DNA of 57,799 bases, taken from a virus. The notes beneath the pieces are model-generated. The model was not told where the DNA came from. It saw only the letters and a program-made list of their open reading frames with translations, and did no database searches. Position 1 is the stretch's first letter; each line of letters starts with the position of its first letter. Location of the stretch: positions 1 through 57,799 of the IMG/VR virus record IMGVR_UViG_3300047560_001719; one strand, 5' to 3'. Below, one piece after another: positions 35,624-49,635 of the stretch. A program made the translations under genes and the position numbers.

Positions 35624-36217
35624 ATGCCATATAATATTCCTAAGTACGGGAAACAACTGAATTGTTTTGCGGTGTGGTCCGGAGGATTTACTTCAGAAGA
35701 AGTCGATAAGATCATTGATCTCGAACGACTTCAAACATTTGAAAAAGGAAAAGTTGGTTTTGATAAGAATGCTGCTGCGCCCGCTGAGACACGAGACTCA
35801 GACGTATCCTGGATTCATCACGATCAACACAGCGACTGGCTTTTCAATCGTATGGCCGGTATCACGTCTATCGTCAACTACGATAACTTCATGTACAACA
35901 TCGATGGAGTCGATGCGTTTCAGTACACGAAGTATGGACCAAACCAGCACTATACTTGGCACTGGGATGTAGAGTTCGGCTGGCAAAAATGGGTTCGAAA
36001 GATCTCGGCTGTTCTGTTACTCTCTGATCCTGATGAGTATGAAGGTGGAGAACTTGAGATCGTTAACACTGGAAACCTCGAAGACAAAGTTTCCTTTAAA
36101 CCGAACAAAGGTGATATCGTATACTTCGCTTCGTGGATGCCGCATCGTGTTGCTCCGGTAACTTCTGGTCTTCGTAGAAGTCTTGTAGCATGGATAATGG
36201 GTGAAAGAGAATGTTGA
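35624..36217 (+). CDS. 2OG-Fe(II) oxygenase, prolyl 4-hydroxylase-like (PKHD type)
   Basis: The 197-residue protein has the complete iron and 2-oxoglutarate site of the P4Hc fold: YGPNQHYTWHWD with H113 and D115, a distal H174 in WMPHRVAPV and R184 in TSGLRR. A conserved GGELEI turn and GDIVYFAS strand complete the jelly roll. The family hydroxylates protein side chains or small molecules using oxygen and 2-oxoglutarate. It follows the Pro-rich repeat protein by 22 bases and overlaps the next gene by seven bases, so it leads the accessory operon. The substrate is not shown by sequence; hydroxylation of Pro in the neighbouring fibre repeats is a hypothesis. Confidence 0.88.
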   Translation: MPYNIPKYGKQLNCFAVWSGGFTSEEVDKIIDLERLQTFEKGKVGFDKNAAAPAETRDSDVSWIHHDQHSDWLFNRMAGITSIVNYDNFMYNIDGVDAFQYTKYGPNQHYTWHWDVEFGWQKWVRKISAVLLLSDPDEYEGGELEIVNTGNLEDKVSFKPNKGDIVYFASWMPHRVAPVTSGLRRSLVAWIMGEREC

Positions 36218-36948
36218 GTTGGAATCCTTTTAAGAAAAAGCCTATCATCGAGTTTTATTGTCATCGAGACGATGTAGCCACTCTTCCTCAGCCTCGACCG
36301 GCAGCAAAGTACATACCGGAATGGTACAAGAGAATTCCACCTGTGATCAATGATGGTAATAACGACCGCGATCAATACGGAGCTCGAACCTTTACAGCCA
36401 AGAAGTGCATGCCAATGTTGGATGCGATGTCTCTTGGATATGTTATTCCCTTGATATCAGATCTTTCAGTTAGGTCAAATCATGATTGTAGCACGATCGA
36501 AGTCACATCTTCTCCACATATCAACGTTTGCGAGTTCCATGACATTCGCCAACTCGGAGAGAGAACTGCTCCTGGATTCCCAGCTCCTCCTCTTAAATTC
36601 ATCAATCCGTGGATCGTGAAGACCGCTCCGGGTTGGTCGACGCTGTTTATGCCGCTTATTAACAATATGGAAAGCCACTTTACTTGTCTTTCTGGTCTGG
36701 TTGATACAGATACCTATCCAAAGGAAGTTAACTTCCCGGCTGTTTGGCACACACCAAACTTTGATGATTTGCTTCCAGCTGGTACTCCCCTTGTAGTAGC
36801 TATTCCGGTCAAGAGAGATGCAATTCCGACAAAACCGGTAGTACGTGACATGACAGATAAAGAATTTGATAAAGTCAATCTTATTACGAAGATGCAGAAC
36901 ACACGTAGAAAAGTTTATACTGATGAATTGAGAGCACCTAGAAAATGA
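36211..36948 (+). CDS. Unknown phage protein, paralogue of 36945 gene
   Basis: The 245-residue protein begins with IIEFYCHRDDVATLPQPRPA and IPEWYKRIPPV, a pattern seen in uncharacterised phage proteins (possibly the DUF6065 group, not certain). The middle has LGYVIPLISD, and the C-terminal half NPWIVKTAPGWSTLFM, then SGLVDTDTYPKEVNFPAVW and AGTPLVVAIPVKR. These stretches align with the downstream gene product. The fold looks like a beta-sandwich or cupin, but no metal triad is evident. It overlaps both neighbours, so it is co-translated with the hydroxylase. Confidence 0.7.
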   Translation: MLSWNPFKKKPIIEFYCHRDDVATLPQPRPAAKYIPEWYKRIPPVINDGNNDRDQYGARTFTAKKCMPMLDAMSLGYVIPLISDLSVRSNHDCSTIEVTSSPHINVCEFHDIRQLGERTAPGFPAPPLKFINPWIVKTAPGWSTLFMPLINNMESHFTCLSGLVDTDTYPKEVNFPAVWHTPNFDDLLPAGTPLVVAIPVKRDAIPTKPVVRDMTDKEFDKVNLITKMQNTRRKVYTDELRAPRK

Positions 36949-37685
36949 AGAATCCATTTACATCATGGTTTAAACCGCAAAAAGATCTCGAATTTGTAGA
37001 TACTACTCGCCTTACGTATCATAACTTTACGGTCGAAAGAGCGTGCGATGTCAAAGCAAACACGTATCGCCATCAACTTGATACGTATGGAAAACATATG
37101 ATGCCGGGTTGTCCAGGAATCCTCGACTACTCTCAGTATGGGTATATTATTCCTGCATGGGTAGACATCCATATTTTTGCAAACAAAGCAGGAGTTTCCT
37201 GGCGCATAGGAGATGGTGCAGCTCGTGGAGATAGAGGGTTTGCAAACGGAAATCCTATGGATTATAGGTTGATAGACGGAGCCTTCGAAGTCGAAGATGT
37301 TCCTCCTACGGCTATTCTATTTCCATCTCCTTGGAAAATCTTTGCACATAAAAATATCAGTGCAATGGTAATGCCTGCAACGTATCATGGTTCTCATTTT
37401 GAAGATTTACATGTTATTCCAGGAATAGTTGACTACAACAAGTTTCATGCAGTCAATTTTATTTGTATGCCGCGACGATCTTGCGAAGTTCATATTAAAG
37501 CCGGAGAACCGCTTCTTCATGTCATGCCGTTTTTAAATAAGTCTATTACAGCGTCGGTCGGTCCAGGCACAGAAGAGCAGGTAGATAAAGCAAAGAACAT
37601 GATTCCGGGTGATGACGAGCAATACTATCGAAAGTTCATGAGAACAAAAAAGATTTTTAAGATAAACAAAGAGAGTGAGCAATGA
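36945..37685 (+). CDS. Unknown phage protein, paralogue of 36211 gene
   Basis: The 246-residue protein shares the layout of the preceding gene product: YGYIIPAWVDIHI against LGYVIPLISDLSV, PSPWKIFAHKNISAMVMP against NPWIVKTAPGWSTLFMP, and PGIVDYNKFHAVNF against SGLVDTDTYPKEVNF. Both have a KAGEPLLHVMPF or AGTPLVVAIPV strand. The two are divergent tandem duplicates. Start and stop both overlap neighbours by ATGA. The function is unknown; the position between a hydroxylase and a glycosyltransferase suggests a part in the same modification pathway. Confidence 0.7.
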   Translation: MKNPFTSWFKPQKDLEFVDTTRLTYHNFTVERACDVKANTYRHQLDTYGKHMMPGCPGILDYSQYGYIIPAWVDIHIFANKAGVSWRIGDGAARGDRGFANGNPMDYRLIDGAFEVEDVPPTAILFPSPWKIFAHKNISAMVMPATYHGSHFEDLHVIPGIVDYNKFHAVNFICMPRRSCEVHIKAGEPLLHVMPFLNKSITASVGPGTEEQVDKAKNMIPGDDEQYYRKFMRTKKIFKINKESEQ

Positions 37686-38698
37686 ATATTTTTGTTTCGA
37701 TCTGTTCTTACCAAGATCCATTACTGCCACATACTATCAAGAGTATGATGCAGACCAAATCTAATAGAAACAACGTCGTGTACTCGATCTTCGAACAGAC
37801 TCGTTATGAGGATTCTCTTGCATGCACAGAACCTGTATTAGTAGGTCGTGAAGACGTTATCTACAAAAGAATTGATCCTGAGTATTCGGACGGATGTGTG
37901 TGGGCAAGATACGTCAACATGTTGAACGTTACTGACGAGTTCGATTTCATCTATCAGATCGATTCGCATATTCTGCACGATCAGCATTGGGATCGCGCGC
38001 TGATCGAAGATTATAAGAGAGCGTTGGATATATCTGGAACAAACAAGATCATCATCACGGGATCGTGTAAAGGTTTCAACATCTCTGAAGAAGATGACGA
38101 GATAAAGACTTATTTGATTGAACAAGAAGATCTATCTTGTAAAGTAGGGTACTACACAATCGATCCTGAAACTCTCATTCCAGTAGTGCACGGAGATTCT
38201 TTTCCTGCAACCGAAATGCCTCAGCCGGCATTTCATATCATGGCAGGCAACTTCTTTACTCACAAAGATTGGGTAGATAATGTCGGCTTAAATCCAAAAA
38301 TCTTCTTCGAAGGCGAAGAAGTAATGATGGCAATGATGTCGTATGCAGCTGGCTATAAGATGTTCCATCACAGTAAGATGGTTTCTTATCACCTAGCTGA
38401 TACAAAGACTTGGCATACAAAGAACAATGTAGTCGAACCAGCAGGTGCACGCCGTAGGCAAAGACTTTCTGAGATCGGTCGACTTGAATGGAGGAAATAC
38501 TTAGATACATGTCGTGAAGATATGCTAGAAGCTTTCCATCAAGAGTTCGGAATCGATTTTATTAATCTTGAAATCGCAGAGAGTGCCCGAACATACAGCT
38601 TAGACACTCCAGGTAAAGCAAATCATTTTACTGAATTCAAGAAGGTTCCAGAAGAAAACCAACTTCCTCCTGCTCTGTTTATGAAAGACGATGAATGA
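37682..38698 (+). CDS. GT60-like glycosyltransferase (GlcNAc-transferase family)
   Basis: The 338-residue protein has the GT-A features of the Skp1-GlcNAc-transferase/GT60 group: an N-terminal IFVSICSYQDPLLPHTIKSM, the segment DGCVWARYVNM, the donor/metal motif YQIDSHILHDQHWD (residues 91-104) and the later KIFFEGEEVMMAMMSYAAGY with a following YHL. In Dictyostelium, GT60 Gnt1 adds GlcNAc to a hydroxyproline made by a P4H; that is family knowledge. Here the gene shares an operon with a P4H-like oxygenase. No membrane anchor is seen, so it acts in the cytoplasm. The actual donor and acceptor are unknown. Confidence 0.78.
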   Translation: MNIFVSICSYQDPLLPHTIKSMMQTKSNRNNVVYSIFEQTRYEDSLACTEPVLVGREDVIYKRIDPEYSDGCVWARYVNMLNVTDEFDFIYQIDSHILHDQHWDRALIEDYKRALDISGTNKIIITGSCKGFNISEEDDEIKTYLIEQEDLSCKVGYYTIDPETLIPVVHGDSFPATEMPQPAFHIMAGNFFTHKDWVDNVGLNPKIFFEGEEVMMAMMSYAAGYKMFHHSKMVSYHLADTKTWHTKNNVVEPAGARRRQRLSEIGRLEWRKYLDTCREDMLEAFHQEFGIDFINLEIAESARTYSLDTPGKANHFTEFKKVPEENQLPPALFMKDDE

Positions 38699-39228
38699 TC
38701 GTTTGTTCTATTCCTCGGTGCGGAGCTACTCGGTTCTGTCTTGATTTGCAAGATCAGACCGATATTCCATTCATCGGAGAACTGAACCCGCTTTACATGT
38801 TCGAGAACAAGAAGGTGGATCATCACGAGACAAAGTTTCAGAAAGATTTTACTCCTGATCGGTTTGCCGATCTTATCTACGATAAGAAAAGCAGCATCGT
38901 CATGATAAATAAATCATCGTATCTGATAGCTGACAAAGCTGACTATGTGATCTTGAGAAAGAATATGATAGACGCTTTCATGAGCTACGCTAACTTCATG
39001 CTGAAGTTGTACCCAGATATCGATACGAAGGTGCTCTTAAAAGAGATACAGTTTACTGTCTACGACTACTTTGGTTTAAAGTCTTACGTTGATAAGTATG
39101 TATGTAATATCGTGTGGTATGAAGACTATTTTGGAAAGAGTGGAACACAGACTCCTTTATTGGATAGTCATAGGCATGGATCGGTAATAAAGAAAGCAAT
39201 TCAGGATGTTTTTAAGGAATGTAGATAG
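38695..39228 (+). CDS. Sulfotransferase-like protein
   Basis: The 177-residue protein begins with a P-loop-like CSIPRCGATRF (residues 4-14), resembling the 5'-phosphosulfate loop of PAPS sulfotransferases (PRSGTT). A second motif VILRKNMIDAFMSYANF (R88, S97) matches the 3'-phosphate site RDPxxxxxSxxxF. It is shorter than most sulfotransferases (250 or more), so it may be a minimal phage version. It overlaps its upstream neighbour by ATGA and the downstream desaturase by 23 bases. It could sulfate a glycan or lipid made by neighbouring enzymes. Activity is inferred from two motifs only. Confidence 0.6.
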   Translation: MIVCSIPRCGATRFCLDLQDQTDIPFIGELNPLYMFENKKVDHHETKFQKDFTPDRFADLIYDKKSSIVMINKSSYLIADKADYVILRKNMIDAFMSYANFMLKLYPDIDTKVLLKEIQFTVYDYFGLKSYVDKYVCNIVWYEDYFGKSGTQTPLLDSHRHGSVIKKAIQDVFKECR

Positions 39229-39931
39229 AACATATCACTTGTTTGCTCTACAACTTATTATGCCCGTCATCGCAGTATGGGCAATGATAACATACTTTTC
39301 ATGGCCATGGGTCTTAGCATCCTTGGTCATGTTTTTCCTTATGCGGTGTGTAGGAGCAGTGGTCACGTATCACCGTATTCATGGTCATCGTACACATACT
39401 ATGCATCCTGTAGTCGAGTTTATATGTACAGGCCTCGGTTTTTATGGTAGCATATCATCGCCGATCGACTTCTGTGCAGCGCACGTCAACCATCACAAGT
39501 ACATGGACACGGAAAAGGATCCTCACTCTCCGAAGTACCTCGGTTGGAAAGCTATGTTCCCTCTCTTTTGGGTAGATCGACAAGCAGGAGATCTTCGAAC
39601 GATAGTAAGATTAGGTAAGAACAAGATCACGAGATTTTATCATGACTACTACTGGCCGTTGCTTCTCGTTCCGTTCTTGTTACTCTTCGTTTCTTTGAAC
39701 GCGTTCTTGTTTTTGTTCGTAGTACCGACCGGTCTTTCGTTGTTTACGCTTTCGATATCAACTCTCAATCATGATAAGAACGGACCAAAAAAGATGCCAT
39801 GGTGGTACGGAATTTTGACCGGTGGAGAACACCATCATAAATGGCATCACGAACATGCAACAGACACGAGCGGAGAAGGATGGCTCGACTACGTTGCCAA
39901 TGCAGTAGGCACAAAAAGGGTTAAGAAATGA
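39206..39931 (+). CDS. Membrane fatty-acid desaturase (Delta9-like)
   Basis: The 241-residue protein has the three histidine boxes of membrane desaturases: HRIHGH (H56-H61), HVNHH (H93-H97) and HKWHH (H211-H215) with the preceding GEHH, plus an LNHD near residue 189. Hydrophobic segments at about 14-50 and 150-185 form the membrane hairpins. It resembles bacterial acyl-CoA/acyl-lipid Delta9 desaturases, somewhat short. It would introduce double bonds in host acyl chains and change membrane fluidity during infection. It overlaps the sulfotransferase-like gene by 23 bases and the next gene by ATGA. Desaturases have been reported in marine phages. Confidence 0.88.
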   Translation: MFLRNVDRTYHLFALQLIMPVIAVWAMITYFSWPWVLASLVMFFLMRCVGAVVTYHRIHGHRTHTMHPVVEFICTGLGFYGSISSPIDFCAAHVNHHKYMDTEKDPHSPKYLGWKAMFPLFWVDRQAGDLRTIVRLGKNKITRFYHDYYWPLLLVPFLLLFVSLNAFLFLFVVPTGLSLFTLSISTLNHDKNGPKKMPWWYGILTGGEHHHKWHHEHATDTSGEGWLDYVANAVGTKRVKK

Positions 39932-40470
39932 ATATCGTACACTCTATAATCAACGATCTATCAGAGATCGACTTCGATGATCTCTACGAAAGAGCGAAGG
40001 ATGCAGTTGAGGCTAGTTGGCCAGCACATTCTCCGTATACTGACGCAGAAAGAAAAACAAAGTTGCTTGAGATGATTGAGAGCGGTATTAACAACGAATG
40101 GCCAGGGACGAACGTACGTGGTGAAGATGACGTATGGTTTATGGCAAAGTCAGTCGATACTGATACAGGAATAGTCATGAGTCTTGGATGTGGTTACATT
40201 ATCGATGGAGACACACACGATGGTAGAATCTCGCTTGTTGCTCCAGACGAAACAGGATCTCGGAACTATCTGTACAACGAGCAGACTCGTTTAGATAGAA
40301 ATCGATTTTATACGGAAAACGGTATATCCAAAATCCTTTATAGAATGATCCCTACTAACTCTGTGATGCATAGGTTCATTAGATACAGAGCGAATGCTGG
40401 TTATTATAGTGTTATAGAAGAAACACCGAGAGGTGATGTAACAGATATTATGGTATCTCTCAACTTATAA
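39928..40470 (+). CDS. Hypothetical protein, last gene of accessory operon
   Basis: The 180-residue product starts by ATGA overlap with the desaturase. Its N-terminal helix (EIDFDDLYERAKDAVEASW) is followed by an alpha/beta region with GIVMSLGCGYIIDGDTHDGR and a C-terminal helix/strand part (YTENGISKILYRMIP). The last part faintly recalls a GNAT acyltransferase end, but I see no acetyl-CoA loop and do not assign it. Its stop codon abuts the stop of the minus-strand glycosyltransferase gene with no space between. Confidence 0.65.
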   Translation: MNIVHSIINDLSEIDFDDLYERAKDAVEASWPAHSPYTDAERKTKLLEMIESGINNEWPGTNVRGEDDVWFMAKSVDTDTGIVMSLGCGYIIDGDTHDGRISLVAPDETGSRNYLYNEQTRLDRNRFYTENGISKILYRMIPTNSVMHRFIRYRANAGYYSVIEETPRGDVTDIMVSLNL

Positions 40471-41241
40471 TTACCACTTTGTTCCGTGTCTTGAACTATA
40501 CTTCTTCTCGGGATGAAACGCAGCAAAGTCTTCATAGCGTGGATCTCCAGGTTCGGCTCTCTTGCCGATGCTGTACTCTCCGATATGAGTAACGAGGTTC
40601 TTTCCTTCTGAACTCTTTAGCTTGCATGTCTTCATTTCCATTTGTTTCAACGATGCTGCCACCACATACTCGCTGAGATTCTTCTCTCCAGTCATCTCAC
40701 GATGCGGGATATCTGCCATGCTTCTTGGAAAGAAGCTCGCTAGACTCCAGAAATACTGATCAGAGAGCTCTACTCGATATTGCGTACTAAGATTTTGAGC
40801 TTTGTCTAGAATGATGTCCGACTCGAGTGGTTGTGTCTCTTCTTCGAAGTCATACCACTTCTGACGCGTCAAGCATACTTGAGAGAACGTTTTGTTGTCA
40901 TGTAAAATCTGAGCGAGATCGAGAACCTTCACCGGTTGGTTGAATGTAACGTCGTCTTCTGACAAGTAAACATAATCGTAATCTCTCTGTCTCAATAGCT
41001 CGAACGTGGCGTTCCATACATATGGAAGTCCCATGTTCTGTTGATGCAGAATTACTTCAGTGTAACCAAAGTTCTTGGCCAACTCATACATCGTTCCGTC
41101 ATGCCGACCTTTTGGCATGTCATCGATAAAGATGCCTTCGACTTCACAGTGACTAAAGTCAAGCATATCTCTCTGAGACTTGAGAGTCGGGATCAGGTAC
41201 TCGAGTCTATTCGTCGACCAGATGATCTTACATACTTTCAT
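40471..41241 (-). CDS. Glycosyltransferase, GT-A fold
   Basis: This minus-strand gene encodes 256 residues. It has a GT-A/GT2-like layout: KIIWSTNRLEYLIPTLKSQ, then IFIDDMPKG (residues 37-45), HQQNMGLPYVWNAT and the metal-binding YLSEDDVTF (residues 92-100). The later SDQYFWSLASFFPRS segment is typical of an acceptor loop. There are no membrane segments. It starts by TGATG overlap with the minus-strand DUF6445-like gene upstream. The acceptor is unknown; it could act on a virion protein or on a product of the adjacent plus-strand operon. Confidence 0.78.
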   Translation of the reverse strand: MKVCKIIWSTNRLEYLIPTLKSQRDMLDFSHCEVEGIFIDDMPKGRHDGTMYELAKNFGYTEVILHQQNMGLPYVWNATFELLRQRDYDYVYLSEDDVTFNQPVKVLDLAQILHDNKTFSQVCLTRQKWYDFEEETQPLESDIILDKAQNLSTQYRVELSDQYFWSLASFFPRSMADIPHREMTGEKNLSEYVVAASLKQMEMKTCKLKSSEGKNLVTHIGEYSIGKRAEPGDPRYEDFAAFHPEKKYSSRHGTKW

Positions 41242-41807
41242 CAGTAAGTCTCCGTATCAAAGAAGAACGTTTGGAAAAGACGACCGTCGTATAGATCCTT
41301 GCCGAAGTAATCGAGGCTGGCATGGAACAGGTCACCGCGATAGATCACAAGTCGATTGTACTTGTTGCCTACAACGTCGATTCGATCCCATTTAGTATAG
41401 TCGTATCCTTCATGTATGTTCTCAGTAGAACGATACTCTCCTGATTCTTTGTGACGATAGATGGCAGTGCCTGCGGTAGGAGGAGCATCAGGAGTCAAGT
41501 AGCATACTGCTGCCCACATACTCGTATGATCGCTGTGGATCCATGTACGATCGAACGCAGTTGCATACTGAAAAGCTCCAGTATAACCAGAGTCTTCATG
41601 CCAATTGGTCACAGGACCAGCAAACCACATCCAGTTCTGAATGCACTGTTTGACGTCGTCTGTGAGAAATGATTTTGTTCTTTTACCTGGATAGTTTCCA
41701 GCGACATCGAATTCTTGGGTCAGAGCGTATGCTCTCACAGCATCAGGATTTATGTAAAAGTTATCGATGATCATCAAGTCTAGATTCATGTCAAGTCGCC
41801 CGTTCAT
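41241..41807 (-). CDS. DUF6445-like putative 2OG-Fe(II) oxygenase
   Basis: The 188-residue minus-strand protein has the pattern of the DUF6445/jelly-roll oxygenase group: WIHSDHTSMWAAVCYLTP with H91 and D93, a PTAGTAIYRHKESGE turn, and a distal LVIYRGDLFHAS with H162 and a later R176. The HxD...H...R order is compatible with an iron and 2-oxoglutarate site. An alternative start is Met7. It is the first gene of the minus-strand unit, just behind a reverse late promoter. It would be a second hydroxylase-type enzyme in this cassette. The substrate is unknown. Confidence 0.7.
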   Translation of the reverse strand: MNGRLDMNLDLMIIDNFYINPDAVRAYALTQEFDVAGNYPGKRTKSFLTDDVKQCIQNWMWFAGPVTNWHEDSGYTGAFQYATAFDRTWIHSDHTSMWAAVCYLTPDAPPTAGTAIYRHKESGEYRSTENIHEGYDYTKWDRIDVVGNKYNRLVIYRGDLFHASLDYFGKDLYDGRLFQTFFFDTETY

Positions 41808-41834: not shown

Positions 41835-41842
41835 TATAAATA
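41835..41842 (+). promoter_or_regulatory. Late promoter (TATAAATA) before gp13
   Basis: This perfect octamer lies 33 bases upstream of gp13, with an AGAGGGA ribosome-binding site at 41865-41871. A second ATAAATA-containing site lies at about 41850-41857. Confidence 0.8.
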
Positions 41843-41875: not shown

Positions 41876-42619
41876 ATGGCAACTCCTACATCAAAAGCCG
41901 AGTTTAAAGAATACTGTCTTCGTAAGCTAGGCAAGCCAGTAATCGAGATCAACGTAGACGACGATCAGGTCGACGATCGCGTTGACGAGGCCATCCGTTA
42001 TTGGTATGACTATCACTTCGATGGTTCAGACAAGGTCTACTACAAGCATGCTATCACCGAAACCGATGTAGCTAACAAGTACATCACTCTTCCAGAGAAT
42101 ATCCTCGGTGCTGTCAGCGTATTCTCGATGGGTGATCCTTCGATTCGCTCAGACGACCTCTTCAATATCCGTTATCAGATCGCGCTGAACGACCTCTACA
42201 CTCTCACTAACGTATCGCTCGTTCCGTACTACATGGTCATGGAACACCTTGGTCTCATGACAGAGTTGCTCGTCGGTAAGCAACCTATTCGCTACTCGCG
42301 TCATAAAGATCGTCTGTACGTTGACATGGACTGGAACACGGTGGCTGTCGGCGAGTTCTTGCTCGTAGAAGCTTATGAAGTCGTGGATCCAGAAACATGG
42401 ACGGATGCATGGAACGATCGCTGGCTTCAGAACTATGCCACGACTCTGATCAAAGAACAGTGGGGTTCCAATCTGACCAAGTTTACTGGCATGACTCTTC
42501 CAGGTGGCGTTCAGTTCAATGGAGAGAAGATCTACGACGATGCTGTCGCCGAGAGGAGAAAGTTGGAAGATGAGATGATCACTTCGTACTCACTTCCGGT
42601 CCTCGATATGATTGGATAA
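41876..42619 (+). CDS. 13: gp13-like neck protein
   Basis: The 247-residue protein (T4 gp13 has 309) begins with EFKEYCLRKLGKPVIEINVD and DDRVDEAIRYWYDYHFDG, the conserved opening of T4-like neck proteins. A C-terminal WLQNYATTLIKEQWGSNL helix and GGVQFNGEKIYDDA are also typical. gp13 and gp14 form the neck that closes the filled head and joins it to the tail. It heads the neck/terminase operon behind a late promoter and is followed by gp14 after three bases. Confidence 0.92.
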   Translation: MATPTSKAEFKEYCLRKLGKPVIEINVDDDQVDDRVDEAIRYWYDYHFDGSDKVYYKHAITETDVANKYITLPENILGAVSVFSMGDPSIRSDDLFNIRYQIALNDLYTLTNVSLVPYYMVMEHLGLMTELLVGKQPIRYSRHKDRLYVDMDWNTVAVGEFLLVEAYEVVDPETWTDAWNDRWLQNYATTLIKEQWGSNLTKFTGMTLPGGVQFNGEKIYDDAVAERRKLEDEMITSYSLPVLDMIG

Positions 42620-42622
42620 TAG

Positions 42623-43351
42623 ATGTCGACTAATTTTTATTTCAACAACTTTACGAACAGTCAAGAACAGATCTTGATCGAGAACCTTGTTCTTGAGTCT
42701 ATCAAGATGTATGGTCATGATGTGTTCTATTGTCCAAGAACGCTGAAGGCCAAAGACGATATTTACGAAGAAGATACGGTTTCAGAGTACAATATGGCTT
42801 ATGAGATCGATATGTACATTCGCAGCTACGAAAGCTATGAAGGAGACGGTCAGTTCCTCTCGAAGTTTGGTCTTGAAATCAGAGATCAGGTTACGTTTAC
42901 GGTTTCAGTTCGAAACTTTATGGATGAAATTGGCCAGTTAGAGATGATCGATCGTCCTCAAGAAGGCGATCTCATCTACTTGCCGATGGCAGATCGTTTG
43001 ATGTACATCAAGTACGTGAACAAGACTCCGGTCTTCTATCAGATGGGTGCAATCCAAATGTACGATCTTGTTTGTGAAATGTTCGAGTACAGCAGCGAAC
43101 ACCTCAACACGGGTATCAAGGCCATCGACGATCTTGAGCGCAAGCTTGGTCTCAGCCTTGATATGTACAGCATCACGACTTCTGATGGTGGCTTCCTTCT
43201 TACTCAAGACGGAAACCCAATCATTCAGGCCGGATACGACTTCGAGACTCAAGCTGGAGACTACTTCGAAGATAATACAGAGATCCAGCAAGAAGCAGAA
43301 GGTGTTCTCGATTGGACACAACGAGATCCATTCAGTGAAGGAGTGATTTAA
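42623..43351 (+). CDS. 14: gp14-like neck protein
   Basis: The 242-residue protein is close to T4 gp14 (256). It opens with NFYFNNFTNSQEQILIENLV, followed by IKMYGHDVFYCPRTL, which is the gp14 signature. The segment RPQEGDLIYLPMADRLMYIK and a later EYSSEHLNTGIKAIDDLE are also conserved. It works with gp13 at the head-tail connection. It overlaps gp15 by one base (TAATG). Confidence 0.92.
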   Translation: MSTNFYFNNFTNSQEQILIENLVLESIKMYGHDVFYCPRTLKAKDDIYEEDTVSEYNMAYEIDMYIRSYESYEGDGQFLSKFGLEIRDQVTFTVSVRNFMDEIGQLEMIDRPQEGDLIYLPMADRLMYIKYVNKTPVFYQMGAIQMYDLVCEMFEYSSEHLNTGIKAIDDLERKLGLSLDMYSITTSDGGFLLTQDGNPIIQAGYDFETQAGDYFEDNTEIQQEAEGVLDWTQRDPFSEGVI

Positions 43352-44181
43352 TGTTTGGAAGAACCTGGAATCACGACTCGCTTCGTAAGTACATCATCGT
43401 CTTCGGAACTCTGTTTAACGATATCTATCTCAATCGTTCTGACATAAACGGTAAGACTATCCAGACTCTGAAGGTTCCTTTGACATATGGTCCAAAGGAC
43501 AAAGTTCTTACGAGATTGGATCAAAACCCAAGACTCGATAACCAAGTAGCTATCGTACTGCCGAGAATCTCGTTCGAGATGTTATCGATGGACTATGATC
43601 CTACTCGTAAGCTGAATACCCTTAATAAGTTGACTAAACAATCTACCACGATGGGAACTGACGACGAAGTCAAGTATCAGTACCAACCCGTTCCGTATGA
43701 CATGATATTCGAGATGAACATCATGGTCAAGAACTCTGAAGACGGCACACGAATCGTAGAGCAGATTGTTCCTTACTTTACACCTGACTTCACGGTCAGC
43801 GTGAACATCGTTCCTGAAGTTGACAATGCTCGTGATATCCCTGTTATCCTAAACAGTATCACTCACCAAGACGAGTACGAAGGCAGCTTCGAGCAAAGAA
43901 GAGCCAGCGTGTGGACTCTCAACTTTACCATGAAGGGATGGCTGTACGGACCTACGAAGAAGTCGAAGCTGATCAAGTTTGCTGAGACTACATTTAGGTT
44001 GACAGAAGACGTTACGATCGCCAACACTACTAATACAACTGATACGATCGTAGTATCTTCTCAGCCAGGATTGACTGTAAGCGGTCAACCTACAAGCAAT
44101 GTTGCTGAAAGTATCGATTATCAAGAAATCATAAGTACAGATGATTACGCAATCATCAATACAATTACAGAGAATCTATAA
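43351..44181 (+). CDS. 15: gp15-like tail completion/sheath terminator
   Basis: The 276-residue protein equals T4 gp15 (272) in size and carries HDSLRKYIIVFGTLFNDIYL, VPLTYGPKDKVLTRL and VLPRISFEMLSMDYDP, all typical of this family. gp15 forms the hexameric ring at the top of the tail and binds the neck. The C-terminus is Thr-rich and variable. It overlaps gp14 and the small terminase gene by TAATG. Confidence 0.93.
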   Translation: MFGRTWNHDSLRKYIIVFGTLFNDIYLNRSDINGKTIQTLKVPLTYGPKDKVLTRLDQNPRLDNQVAIVLPRISFEMLSMDYDPTRKLNTLNKLTKQSTTMGTDDEVKYQYQPVPYDMIFEMNIMVKNSEDGTRIVEQIVPYFTPDFTVSVNIVPEVDNARDIPVILNSITHQDEYEGSFEQRRASVWTLNFTMKGWLYGPTKKSKLIKFAETTFRLTEDVTIANTTNTTDTIVVSSQPGLTVSGQPTSNVAESIDYQEIISTDDYAIINTITENL

Positions 44182-44570
44182 TGAGTAATGAACTTGATAA
44201 GTTTTTGAACATCGCTCCCGGCGAAAACCTACCAGCGGTGGTGGAGAAGAAGATGACGACACAGGTAGACGCTGACTTCGAGTATGCTCGTGAGAACATG
44301 ATGGAAGTCATCAATAAGGGACAAGAAGCTTTGTTCGATCTGATGGATGTGGCTCGTCAGAGTCAGCATCCGCGAGCATACGAAGTTCTTGCTACCATGA
44401 TGAACACGATGGTCGGAGCCAGCAAAGATTTGCTCGACCTTCAGGCAAAAAAGAAAAAGATCATGGAAGAAGATCCTACTGCTTCTCCTCAGCAAGTCAC
44501 GAACAACCTGTTCGTAGGCTCGACTGCCGAACTTCAAAAGTATTTAAAGCAAAACAGAGATGGCGAGTGA
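44181..44570 (+). CDS. 16: gp16-like terminase small subunit
   Basis: The 129-residue product (T4 gp16 has 164) lies between gp15 and gp17 and is predicted as a long helical hairpin (FEYARENMMEVINKGQEALF, ATMMNTMVGASKDLLDLQAK), the core of the small terminase ring. The C-terminus has NNLFVGSTAELQKYL, which is conserved in marine T4-like gp16. It recognises DNA and stimulates the large subunit. It overlaps gp17 by 11 bases. Confidence 0.88.
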   Translation: MSNELDKFLNIAPGENLPAVVEKKMTTQVDADFEYARENMMEVINKGQEALFDLMDVARQSQHPRAYEVLATMMNTMVGASKDLLDLQAKKKKIMEEDPTASPQQVTNNLFVGSTAELQKYLKQNRDGE

Positions 44571-46233
44571 AAACTATCTAGGTAATCCTAGACTCAAACG
44601 CGCAGATACCAAAGTAGAGTATACTCCCGAACAGGTTCAGGAGTACATCAAGTGTTCTGAGGATCCGATCTACTTTATCTTGAACTACTGTAAGATCGTC
44701 AACATCGATAAGGGTCTGATCATGTTCCCTCTCTGGGAATTCCAGAAGGAAATGATCCTATCCTTTGAAGAGAATCGCTTCGTTATCTGTAAGATGCCTC
44801 GTCAGGTGGGTAAGACGACTACCGTTGCTGCTTACCTGCTATGGAAGATCCTCTTCAACGAAGAGTACTCGATCGCCATTCTCGCTAACAAGGACAGACA
44901 GGCCCGTGAAATTCTTGGTCGTATCCAGCTCATGTTCGAACACCTTCCAAAGTGGCTCCAGATGGGAGTTACAGAATGGAACAAAGGTAACATTAAGCTC
45001 GAGAACGGGTCTGAAATCCTTGCGTCTGCTACGTCTTCTTCCGCCATCCGTGGTACTTCTCAGAACATGGTCTACCTAGACGAGTTCGCGTTCGTACCTA
45101 CAAATATTCAAGACGAGTTCTTCGCATCGGTATATCCTACCATTTCATCGGGTCAGAGTTCTAAGGTTCTGATCACATCGACGCCGAACGGCATGAACAT
45201 GTTCTACCGTATTTGGACAGAGTCTGAAGAAGGTCGTAACGCTTACGCTCGAGTCGACGTTCACTGGTCACAGATTCCTGGTCGCGATGAGGCTTGGAAA
45301 GAAGAAACGATCTCGAACACCTCTGAAGATCAGTTCAGACAGGAATACGAGTGCGAGTTCCTCGGTTCATCGAACACACTCATTCACCCAAGCAAACTTC
45401 GTAATATGGTCTACAAACAACCTATCGCACAGGATGTGGGTGGGTTGAAGGTATACGAGGAACCAGAAGAAGATACCATCTATGCTATCGTTGTCGATAC
45501 CTCTCGAGGAGCAGGAGCCGACTACTCTGCCTTCATTGTCGTCAACGTATCTACGATGCCGTATCGACAGGTGGCCACGTATCGAAATAACTTGATCTCT
45601 CCGATGGTATACCCGAACATCATCTACGGAGCTGCGATCAAGTACAACAACGCTTTGGTACTTGTCGAAACAAACGATATCGGCCAACAGGTAGCAGACA
45701 TTCTTCACTATGATCTTGAATATGACGGAGTTCTGGTGACTGCCAACAACGGTCGTACTGGTCAGAGTCTGTCAGGTGGCTTCGCTACCACCACTCACTA
45801 TGGTGTCAAGACTACCAAGCAGGTGAAGAGAATCGGTTGTGCTACTCTCAAGACGTTGGTCGAGTCAGATAAGTTCATCATCGTCGACTATGATACCATT
45901 TATGAACTGTATAGGTTCTCTTTGAAAAACAGTCTCAAAGGCAACCAGTCTTACGAAGCCGAAGAAGGCAACGACGACATGGCTATGTGCTGTGTTCTGT
46001 TTGCATGGTTGACGACTCAGCCATACTTGAAAGAGATCACGAACCTTGACATTCGTATGCAGATCTACGAGCAGAACGAGAAGATGCTCGAGCAAGCTAT
46101 GCTGCCCTTTGGTCTGATGAGCACAGGCGACGATGCATACGATGATGAAGTCAACGAACCACTCTTTGACGGCGGTCAGAAAGACGAGTTCTGGGCGGAT
46201 CGTAAGAGAGGATTCTTTGAAGGAAACTTTTGA
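44560..46233 (+). CDS. 17: gp17-like terminase large subunit
   Basis: The 557-residue protein (T4 gp17 has 610) has an ATPase domain with Walker A RQVGKTT (81-87), Walker B VYLDEF (171-176, with D174 and E175) and the coupling motif LITSTPNG (204-211). The nuclease domain follows with VVDTSRGAGADYSAF (D313 and D321) and a C-terminal EGNDDMAMC acidic motif. It pumps DNA into the prohead and cuts the concatemer. The start overlaps gp16. A Coq4-like gene follows only one base after its stop. Confidence 0.96.
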   Translation: MASENYLGNPRLKRADTKVEYTPEQVQEYIKCSEDPIYFILNYCKIVNIDKGLIMFPLWEFQKEMILSFEENRFVICKMPRQVGKTTTVAAYLLWKILFNEEYSIAILANKDRQAREILGRIQLMFEHLPKWLQMGVTEWNKGNIKLENGSEILASATSSSAIRGTSQNMVYLDEFAFVPTNIQDEFFASVYPTISSGQSSKVLITSTPNGMNMFYRIWTESEEGRNAYARVDVHWSQIPGRDEAWKEETISNTSEDQFRQEYECEFLGSSNTLIHPSKLRNMVYKQPIAQDVGGLKVYEEPEEDTIYAIVVDTSRGAGADYSAFIVVNVSTMPYRQVATYRNNLISPMVYPNIIYGAAIKYNNALVLVETNDIGQQVADILHYDLEYDGVLVTANNGRTGQSLSGGFATTTHYGVKTTKQVKRIGCATLKTLVESDKFIIVDYDTIYELYRFSLKNSLKGNQSYEAEEGNDDMAMCCVLFAWLTTQPYLKEITNLDIRMQIYEQNEKMLEQAMLPFGLMSTGDDAYDDEVNEPLFDGGQKDEFWADRKRGFFEGNF

Positions 46234-46234
46234 T

Positions 46235-46945
46235 ATGAAAGACGAATATAGATTAGATCTTAAGAGACTATTCAAAGCTCTGAAACATACGCTGTATCAC
46301 CCTACTAACGCTTTGATATTTCTTTCTCAGATCGTTAGACATGGCAGTGGACCTTCTCTTAAGTATACTTACAAGAAGATGCTTGAGACTCGTATTGGTG
46401 GTCAAATGGCGTTCAAGAGCGAGGAGATTTTACACTATATTCCCACACTCAAAGATCGACCTGTTGGTTCGGTCGGTCATATTTCATACGAAAAGTTTAA
46501 ACAAGCACAGTTGAAAGTAGTAAAGATTAGTCGAAGACAAGCTAATGATAAATGGATAGATGCTGAGCATCCATATAGTTGGATGGCTCGAAGATATCGT
46601 GATACTCATGATTTTTGGCACGTATTAACTGGTTACCCTACGACTATCGATGGAGAGATGTGCCTTGCTATGTTCTCGTTCGCACAAACGAGATCGCTGA
46701 GTTGGCTAATTATAGCTCTTACTATTTTGTTCGACCTCGGCCGACCATTTCGAGAAAGGGACTTCACTCTTACAAGATTAAGAATGGCATACGAAGCCTA
46801 CAAGAATGGTAAGAAGGCAAAGTTTCTACTCGCCGAGGACTATGATAAATTATTATCAGAGAACTTACAAGATGCTAGGGAACGATTGGGCGTAAGAAGG
46901 CCGAGCTTCTTCGTCGATAGATCTCCCGAATTGCTGAAGTTATAA
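46235..46945 (+). CDS. Coq4-like protein (ubiquinone biosynthesis family)
   Basis: The start is taken as the ATG at 46235, one base after the gp17 stop; an in-frame ATG at 46133 would overlap gp17 by 101 bases. The 236-residue product is the usual size for Coq4. Residues 119-141 contain RRYRDTHDFWHVLTGYP and then GE, giving exactly HDxxHx11E (H125, D126, H129, E141), the zinc-binding signature of Coq4. Helical flanks and a hydrophobic segment (WLIIALTILFDLG) fit the family. Coq4 acts on the ring of the ubiquinone precursor and organises the Coq complex. Its DNA is somewhat AT-richer than gp17. The role in infection (supporting host respiration) is inference. Confidence 0.85.
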   Translation: MKDEYRLDLKRLFKALKHTLYHPTNALIFLSQIVRHGSGPSLKYTYKKMLETRIGGQMAFKSEEILHYIPTLKDRPVGSVGHISYEKFKQAQLKVVKISRRQANDKWIDAEHPYSWMARRYRDTHDFWHVLTGYPTTIDGEMCLAMFSFAQTRSLSWLIIALTILFDLGRPFRERDFTLTRLRMAYEAYKNGKKAKFLLAEDYDKLLSENLQDARERLGVRRPSFFVDRSPELLKL

Positions 46946-46948
46946 ATA
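46941..46948 (+). promoter_or_regulatory. Late promoter (TATAAATA) before tail sheath
   Basis: This perfect octamer contains the Coq4-like stop codon (46943-46945) and lies 47 bases before gp18, with an AAGGGAGA ribosome-binding site at 46984-46991. Confidence 0.85.
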
Positions 46949-46995: not shown

Positions 46996-49635
46996 ATGGC
47001 GTTTCAAGTCAGCCCGGGAATCAACGTTTCCGAAATTGATCTTACAACTTCCGTACCAGCACTAGCGACTACTGTCGGTGGTATTGGTGGCGTGTTTCGT
47101 TGGGGTCCGATCGGAAAGTTTGTCCTCGTAGATTCAGAAAATACACTCGTAAATCGCTTCGGTAAGCCGACTGCCGACAACTACGAAACCTTCTTCACAG
47201 CAGCTAACTTCCTTTCGTATGGAAACGCCCTGTATGTTTCGCGTGCTGGTACCACGACAGCGTCTTTTGCTAATACGGTTGCATCTTCGAACGTTAACCT
47301 ACAGAGCAATACTACTGTCGTTCTTTCAGACAATACAAACCCATACGGTGTTACTGCTGGTCAAAGAGTAATCGGTGACGGTATCGCAGAAGGAACATAT
47401 GTTACTTCGGTTACAGCAAACTCTTCTGCTCTTGCAGTCGTTCTTAATCGCGCTGCAACTTCAAGCACAGACGCTGCGCTTACGTTCCTTTCGAACAACG
47501 TAGCTCTTTCTGCTTATGCGGGCGACACATCAGTTGCAAACAGTCTTGCGACAATCGTCAAGAACACTGAGCAGTTCGAAAACATGGGTGCAACTAACAC
47601 TGCCTTCACTGGTACAGAGTTTATTGCTCGTTATCCTGGTGAACTTGGTAACTCTCTCAAGGTTTCGATGTGCTCTACTGCGCAGCAATACAGCGAGACT
47701 GTTACATTCGAAACTAATACCTCATGGGGTTACACCGCTGCAAACACATACGCTCTTGCAGATCTTACATCTGCAACGATGTCGATCAACGTTGCTAGCA
47801 ACACTGCTAACGTCGTGTTCGTATGGTCGGGAGACGACTTTGCGGATCGTGTAGCTGCTTCTGCAACCGCTCGTACACTCGGATCGAACAACGTTTCAGC
47901 CAACTTCATCACTCTATCGACAGCTAACACTCTGTTCACTAACGGTGATACAGTATGGTTTGCAAAGGGTGCAGCTTCTTCAGCGAACAGTATTCAAGGC
48001 CTTTCAGAAGGTACAACTTACTACGTTATCGGAGCGAATACAACAGGTCTATCTCTGTCGCTGACACTTAACGGTGCAGCCGTTTCGATCTCGAACGGTG
48101 CTGCTAACTCGGTTAACTACATCGTCAAGCAATCGGCTACTGACCTTGGTCTTACTCTTGCTCAGGCTCGTCTGGCTGTTACAGCCCTTCGCGATAAGAT
48201 CACTGTCGGTGACTACGTTGAAGTTGGTAACACAACTGTCGGCAAGCAGAACCTGAAGGTAACTTCGAAGGGTTCACAGCTCGACGACGGTACAAACATC
48301 TACTTCAACATCGGCTTCGATACAACTTGGAACAAGTCAACTAACTACAGCGCTTCGGCACTGACTCGTAAGTGGGAATACTTCAACGTTGTCGAGTCTG
48401 CTCCAGGTACATCTTCGGCGATGGCTGCAGCAGGTCGTGCTATCACTGACGAAGTATCGGTTGTAGTTGTCGACGAAGACGGTCTGATCTCGGGTACACC
48501 CGGTCAAGTTCTTGAAATCTACCAGAACCTTTCGCGCGCGACAAACGCCAAGAAGGACGACGGTACAACGAACTACTACAAGACTATCATCAACGACTTC
48601 TCACGTTACGTATGGGCAACCAACGATCGTTCAGCAGCCGCATCGGATACTCTTGGAGACCTTTCTGATTCGACCAATACTGTTCCTTACACCAAGTCGT
48701 TCGTACGCGGTGCAGATGGTGCTACAGAGAATACGATCTCGATGGCTGCTCTCGGCGCTGCTTACGATCTGTTCGCAGATGCAAGCACTGTTGATCTTTC
48801 GCTGCTTCTACAGGGTAAGGCAACAGGAACAAACGACGTTCAGCTAGCCAACTATCTGATCGACAACGTCGCTGAAGTTCGCAAGGATTGCGTAGTGTTC
48901 ATCTCTCCTGCTAAGTCAGACGTCGTAGGTGTTGGTCTTGAAAATCTTCAAGCACAAAACATCGTCGACTTCAGAAACGCACTGCATAACACATCTTATG
49001 CATTCCTCGATTCTGGTTACAAGTATCAGTACGACAAGTACGCTGACGTTTACCGCTATATTCCACTGAACGGTGACATCGCCGGTATCACTGCTCGCAG
49101 CGATAGCGTAAGAGATCCTTGGTTCTCACCAGCTGGCTTCACACGCGGTCAAGTCAAGAACCTTGTAAAGCTTGCCTTCAGCCCGAACAAGACTGAAAGA
49201 GATCTTCTGTACAAGAACGATGTCAACCCAGTCGTTACGTTCCCAGGTCAAGGTACAGTACTTTACGGAGACAAGACACTTCTTGGACGTTCAAGCGCAT
49301 TCGATCGTATCAACGTTCGTCGCCTGTTCATCGTTCTTGAAAAGGCGATCGCCACTGCTTCTAACTCGGCACTGTTTGAGTTCAACGATGAGTTCACAAG
49401 AGCTCAGTTCAGAAACCTCGTAGAACCTTACCTACGTGACGTACAAGGTCGCCGCGGTATCTACGACTTCCGTGTGGTTTGCGATGAAACGAACAACACT
49501 GCTGAAGTAATCGACAGCAACCGCTTTGTTGGAGATATCTACATCAAGCCTGCTAAGTCGATCAACTTCATTCAGCTGAACTTCGTTGCCGTAAGATCTG
49601 GTGTCGAATTCAACGAAATCGCTGGCCAGTTCTAA
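46996..49635 (+). CDS. 18: gp18-like tail sheath protein with inserted domain
   Basis: The product has 879 residues against 659 for T4 gp18. The N-terminus (FQVSPGINVSEIDLTTSVPA, then GGVFRWGPIGKF) and the C-terminal 330 residues (DPWFSPAGFTRGQVKN, AFDRINVRRLFIVLEKAI, FTRAQFRNLVEPYLRDVQGR) are the conserved contractile sheath core. The middle is expanded. Residues about 298-378 (47886-48130) hold one copy of the NGDxVxF...YYVxGANTTGLSLS module seen in the gp7-like and DUF4815 proteins. Such insertions project outward in known sheaths. It has its own late promoter, as expected for a high-copy protein. Confidence 0.95.
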   Translation: MAFQVSPGINVSEIDLTTSVPALATTVGGIGGVFRWGPIGKFVLVDSENTLVNRFGKPTADNYETFFTAANFLSYGNALYVSRAGTTTASFANTVASSNVNLQSNTTVVLSDNTNPYGVTAGQRVIGDGIAEGTYVTSVTANSSALAVVLNRAATSSTDAALTFLSNNVALSAYAGDTSVANSLATIVKNTEQFENMGATNTAFTGTEFIARYPGELGNSLKVSMCSTAQQYSETVTFETNTSWGYTAANTYALADLTSATMSINVASNTANVVFVWSGDDFADRVAASATARTLGSNNVSANFITLSTANTLFTNGDTVWFAKGAASSANSIQGLSEGTTYYVIGANTTGLSLSLTLNGAAVSISNGAANSVNYIVKQSATDLGLTLAQARLAVTALRDKITVGDYVEVGNTTVGKQNLKVTSKGSQLDDGTNIYFNIGFDTTWNKSTNYSASALTRKWEYFNVVESAPGTSSAMAAAGRAITDEVSVVVVDEDGLISGTPGQVLEIYQNLSRATNAKKDDGTTNYYKTIINDFSRYVWATNDRSAAASDTLGDLSDSTNTVPYTKSFVRGADGATENTISMAALGAAYDLFADASTVDLSLLLQGKATGTNDVQLANYLIDNVAEVRKDCVVFISPAKSDVVGVGLENLQAQNIVDFRNALHNTSYAFLDSGYKYQYDKYADVYRYIPLNGDIAGITARSDSVRDPWFSPAGFTRGQVKNLVKLAFSPNKTERDLLYKNDVNPVVTFPGQGTVLYGDKTLLGRSSAFDRINVRRLFIVLEKAIATASNSALFEFNDEFTRAQFRNLVEPYLRDVQGRRGIYDFRVVCDETNNTAEVIDSNRFVGDIYIKPAKSINFIQLNFVAVRSGVEFNEIAGQF

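Follow-up and report, generated by a model that had tools for sequence, protein, structure and literature searches.

A Coq4-family gene between the terminase and tail sheath genes of uncultured T4-like phages, with a possible role in host ubiquinone synthesis

The DNA analysed here, referred to as the window, comprises positions 1 to 57,799 of IMG/VR record IMGVR_UViG_3300047560_001719 (57,799 nucleotides) and derives from a T4-like phage whose late block, as assigned with PHROGs, runs in the order gp13, gp14, gp15, gp16, gp17, coq4, gp18, gp19 and gp20, with the genes for the scaffold and major head proteins lying farther along. The + strand encodes the neck proteins gp13 (head-tail adaptor; 41876-42619, phrog_211) and gp14 (head closure; 42623-43351, phrog_460), the tail sheath stabiliser gp15 (43351-44181, phrog_227), the small and large terminase subunits gp16 (44181-44570, phrog_445) and gp17 (44560-46233, phrog_5989 and phrog_2), and the tail sheath protein gp18 (46996-49635, phrog_23). 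The last of these, at 879 residues compared with the 496 positions of the best PHROG profile, carries large insertions. Just before the neck genes, a block at 35624-41807 encodes a 2OG-Fe(II) oxygenase, a DUF6065 protein, a GlcNAc-type glycosyltransferase and, on the opposite strand, a further glycosyltransferase-like protein. The presence of coq4 (46235-46945, + strand) in a phage genome and its place between terminase and tail sheath, both proposed in the initial annotation, are confirmed by the gp17 and gp18 matches. The open reading frame starts with ATG, ends with TAA and specifies 236 amino acids; its start codon follows the gp17 stop (TGA, 46231-46233) after the single intervening base described previously, and a putative ribosome-binding-like site, AAGGAA (46220-46225, +), lies within the end of gp17, nine bases before the ATG. 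The third-position GC content of coq4 is 0.38 compared with 0.47-0.57 in the adjoining genes, which fits a foreign origin but is not in itself proof of one.

The octamer TATAAATA, a late-promoter-like sequence, occurs seven times in the window, always on the + strand, where 1.6 copies would be expected, and none of 100 shuffles reached seven. One copy (46941-46948), the predicted late-promoter box of gp18, overlaps the coq4 stop codon, as had been noted from the window itself, and does so in 41 of 41 related loci. Because this box lies downstream of coq4 it should drive gp18 and not coq4. The nearest such site 5' of the gene precedes gp13 (41835-41842, +), and a scan of the window detected no further copy between 41835 and 46941. 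Thus coq4, which sits in a tightly packed unit 3' of the box in the manner of T4-type late units, would most simply close the gp13-gp17 unit and be co-transcribed with it from the 41835 site. The initial view that the gene is expressed both late and strongly is therefore retained only in part; late expression is likely, from the box before gp13, but strong expression is not supported.

The encoded protein is a genuine member of the Coq4 family as judged by profile, motif, fold and phylogeny, in accord with the homology first proposed. A family profile search and structure prediction, the two computational checks suggested at that stage, gave concordant answers. The Pfam profile PF05019 matched residues 22-223 (profile positions 26-220 of 221) with 68.8 bits (cut-off 22.9; E = 5.5e-19), and phmmer retrieved both Coq4 proteins of known structure (3msq, 6e12), at E values of 2e-8 and 5e-7. 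An AlphaFold2 model based on 67 aligned phage and bacterial sequences (pLDDT 83.7, pTM 0.84) displays the all-helical Coq4 fold; an earlier model that used only 19 close phage relatives (pLDDT 43.7) was discarded, the problem being cured by the bacterial rows. In Foldseek the same two structures were the sole significant PDB matches of the model, and in VIA-align they gave Z scores of 19.0 (6e12; rmsd 3.8 over 204 residues) and 17.8 (3msq; rmsd 3.3 over 202 residues), whereas the next-best PDB entry scored only 3.0. Codons 125-141 (46607-46657, +) encode the putative metal motif HDFWHVLTGYPTTIDGE, in which H125-D126-F-W-H129, 11 further residues and E141 conform exactly to the HDxxHx11E pattern, found intact here just as first described. 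H125, D126, H129 and E141 are unchanged in all 19 distinct aligned proteins from the gp17-gp18 site, and the pattern is also intact in the more distant phage rows and the bacterial rows of the alignments. The phage protein would bind a divalent metal at this site. A chance occurrence of the motif is ruled out by the profile, the fold and the dN/dS values given below.

Relatives of coq4 were not detected by tblastn in 50,697 phage genome records, no PHROG family matched the protein, and no viral fold similar to the model was found in BFVD. In IMG/VR, by contrast with these libraries, the protein query identified 43 loci, and alignment queries more. These fall into two groups. Contigs in which coq4 directly follows gp17 and, wherever the contig extends that far, precedes gp18, at least 45 of them, make up group A; the 43 loci retrieved by the protein query all share one gene order around coq4. 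In one group A relative (L285, 9945-10658) a fatty-acid desaturase gene (PF00487), beside sulfotransferase-like genes, precedes the neck operon by a few genes. In group B, about 14 contigs (L071-L078 and L168-L173), the Coq4 proteins are 44-53% identical and most lack the C-terminal PNxLKL tail of group A. Here the gene is found outside any obvious late operon, in a different cassette (for example L072, 4265-7854) that, in the contigs read, consists of a glycosyltransferase gene, coq4 and a gene for a 207-209-residue protein of no assigned function, followed in several instances by a B12-radical-SAM protein gene, the product of which had no match in the 50,697 phage records. Judged by gp23 (65% and 39% identical to that of the window), two phages of group B are T4-like, and their coq4 is located away from gp23. 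Another ubiquinone gene was not seen beside coq4 in any cassette read. Across 20 kb of one T4-like contig with coq4 (L281), 28 tRNA genes lie around the group B coq4 region; neither the window nor the 58 kb analysed of a 128-kb relative has a tRNA gene.

In a tree of 92 Coq4 proteins all phage copies form a single clade (support 100/100) nested among Caulobacteraceae and Sphingomonadales proteins, and a second tree with different sampling agrees (41 rows, 100/99). The nesting of the phage clade, which has a long stem branch, among bacterial Coq4s sets the direction of transfer as bacterium to phage. Most simply, the trees point to one capture from an alphaproteobacterial lineage of the Caulobacteraceae/Sphingomonadales type, although some of the bacterial rows had been picked because they matched the phage protein most closely, which leaves the exact donor open. 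A genome scan with a phage-only alignment found no relatives, and addition of a Cupriavidus row to the alignment yielded 352. Being host-derived, nested in a bacterial clade and bordered on both sides by structural genes, coq4 has these attributes of an auxiliary metabolic gene.

Among the phages coq4 shows dN/dS values of 0.03-0.23, indicating that the protein is kept by purifying selection. Its history at the gp17-gp18 site is one of exchange and loss. When L001, which is nearly identical to the window, is set aside, group A phages share some 92-96% identity with the window in gp17 but only 51-73% in coq4, and at synonymous sites several pairs differ far more in coq4 than in gp17 (distances of 2.16 versus 0.40 for L002/L025), which indicates that coq4 alleles have been exchanged at this site. 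In one contig (L167/L197) a coq4 of 51% identity lies between a gp17 that is 95.7% identical and gp18. In addition, 16 contigs with gp17 more than 90% identical (L217, L218, L220, L222-L224, L228, L229, L237-L240, L242, L244, L251 and L268) have no intact coq4, their gp17-gp18 gaps measuring 95-198 bases. In most of these gaps 3'-terminal coq4 sequence can still be recognised: L244 fuses the first bases of the gene to its last 128, the final 59 bases match the L224 gap with an alignment score of 71 (33 for the best of 300 shuffles), and the gaps of L217, L218, L229 and L239 also beat all shuffles, while the alignment of L238 did not rise above them. The short gaps are therefore deletion scars in which the terminal part of coq4, with the gp18 promoter box, has been retained. 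The remnants rule out the near coq4-less relatives as the state before insertion. More distant phages (gp17 75-88% identical), in which gp17 itself ends inside TATAAATA, look like that earlier state. The gene is dispensable in several sister phages. The phage Coq4 lineage as a whole is real, is not listed in the libraries searched and, through its allele swaps and deletions, has a history that is informative.

What the phage protein does for its owner can be approached through the C1 step of ubiquinone synthesis, which in many bacteria is carried out by UbiD, the usual C1 decarboxylase, together with a hydroxylase. In human cells COQ4 performs a one-step C1 oxidative decarboxylation that replaces the carboxyl group of CoQ precursors with a hydroxyl (PMC11495197). 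A role in ubiquinone synthesis is the most likely single reading of the phage enzyme. We propose, at about even odds, that coq4 serves as an auxiliary metabolic gene whose product, a metal-dependent Coq4 of alphaproteobacterial origin made late, sustains host ubiquinone and respiration by C1 decarboxylation. A gene captured from a Caulobacteraceae/Sphingomonadales-type lineage, most simply once, would have diversified among T4-like phages; its protein, the last product of the neck-terminase unit late in infection, would act at the inner membrane, where, with its HDxxHx11E metal site, it would exchange the carboxyl group at C1 of prenylated 4-hydroxybenzoate precursors for a hydroxyl, and host ubiquinone, hence respiration and ATP supply, would be sustained during infection. 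The broader proposal, that one uncultured T4-like phage group runs this ring step with its own single-enzyme C1 oxidative decarboxylase, feeding host respiration, and that the gene is allele-swapped and repeatedly kept or lost at one late-operon site, is offered tentatively, as falling a little short of an even chance.

The distribution of UbiD provides partial support for the ubiquinone role. UbiD is absent from eight of nine tested sphingomonad genomes whose Coq4 belongs to the clade adjoining the phage copies, and in a set of 60 Sphingomonadales 10 of the 18 genomes that lack UbiD have Coq4, compared with 9 of the 42 that possess UbiD (Fisher p 0.015), although some of those 10 carry Coq4 lineages other than the phage-like one. 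Counting against the proposal are the finding that the remaining 8 of the 18 UbiD-less genomes have no Coq4, the presence of both proteins in all six tested Caulobacteraceae genomes, the failure to see any further ubiquinone gene next to coq4 in the phage cassettes read, and the dispensability of the gene in several sister phages. Across 142 Alphaproteobacteria no complementarity was observed (UbiD in 5 of 12 Coq4 genomes), and so the pattern is taken as partial support from the Sphingomonadales only.

It could be argued that the Coq4 fold serves a different lipophilic substrate, the enzyme acting on a membrane lipid or polyprenyl carrier, modifying an aromatic compound or catalysing a reaction like that of catabolic paralogues, and this we consider a substantial, if lesser, possibility. 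Bacterial Coq4 paralogues are encoded in P450 and acyl-CoA dehydrogenase clusters on sphingomonad plasmids (L081 and L084); there, and on a Cupriavidus replicon (L080), the genes next to Coq4 encode P450, acyl-CoA dehydrogenase and nitronate monooxygenase, a hint that these paralogues act in catabolism and not in quinone synthesis. Coq4 is also present in cyanobacteria, which are not known to make ubiquinone, and oleic acid is bound in the solved structure 6e12. The glycosyltransferase and B12-radical-SAM genes of the group B cassette, and the desaturase and sulfotransferase-like genes in the variable block near one group A coq4, could be read in the same way; gene neighbourhood in phages, however, is a weak guide to pathway. 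Also against this reading, the phage copies join, in the tree, the sphingomonad lineage that occurs mainly where UbiD is absent, apart from those paralogues that were sampled from genomes with UbiD. With bacterial Coq4s thus mixed, some following the UbiD pattern and others lying in catabolic clusters, the ubiquinone role is most likely rather than demonstrated.

Less probable again, and in our view unlikely, is a non-catalytic Coq4 that would bind lipids or act as a scaffold on host ubiquinone enzymes or lipids and change their activity, such that respiration might be taken over or slowed. A part in organising the CoQ complex has been proposed for Coq4 of yeast and COQ4 of humans (PMC11495197), and function may have shifted along the long stem branch of the phage clade, but the invariance of all four motif residues in every aligned phage protein argues for a kept metal site. 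That the protein serves in the virion or its assembly, as its position among structural genes in every group A phage might suggest, is highly improbable given the relatives with near-identical gp17 (>90%) and normally placed gp18 that lack intact coq4, and the separate cassette, away from gp23, in group B.

A literature search, mostly outside subscription journals, found no relevant paper that connects Coq4 to phages or to auxiliary metabolic genes, consistent with the remark in the initial annotation that no well-described case was known. The retention, exchange and occasional loss of coq4 suggest that phages may top up the respiratory quinone of the host, or another membrane lipid. If the enzyme does make ubiquinone, it offers a direct handle on how lytic phages sustain host respiration late in infection, and the existence of sister phages with terminases more than 90% identical, with and without coq4, constitutes a natural experiment. 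The phage copies also provide a distant, compact set of Coq4s with which to study the poorly understood bacterial enzymes.

A quinone-pathway-related gene in phages is not new in kind, as ubiG has been reported among the metabolic genes of viruses from the Baltic Sea (PMC9301287); UbiG, however, is a methyltransferase of another family, and Coq4, which is not reported in that study, is new. The T4-like phages Stenotrophomonas DLP_6 and Synechococcus S-RIM2 resemble the window in structural gene order but, unlike it, have gp17 and gp18 adjacent without coq4, and identity between the window and isolated phages reaches 57% in gp17 and 61% in gp23. Similar to the Caulobacteraceae/Sphingomonadales clade of the PF05019 family, the phage protein has the profile, the HDxxHx11E motif, the length and 33-43% identity to bacterial members. 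In contrast with those bacterial proteins, the phage copies are encoded by lytic-type T4-like phages and sit on a long stem branch, and the group A proteins differ from family relatives in a C-terminal tail ending in PNxLKL-stop, the coding sequence of which overlaps the gp18 promoter. The cyanobacterial structures 3MSQ and 6E12 share the fold over 202-204 residues but only 18-21% identity, and themselves have no assigned reaction. The comparison with human and yeast COQ4, the C1 oxidative decarboxylase, is drawn at the level of family and motif, both of which the phage protein has in common with them.
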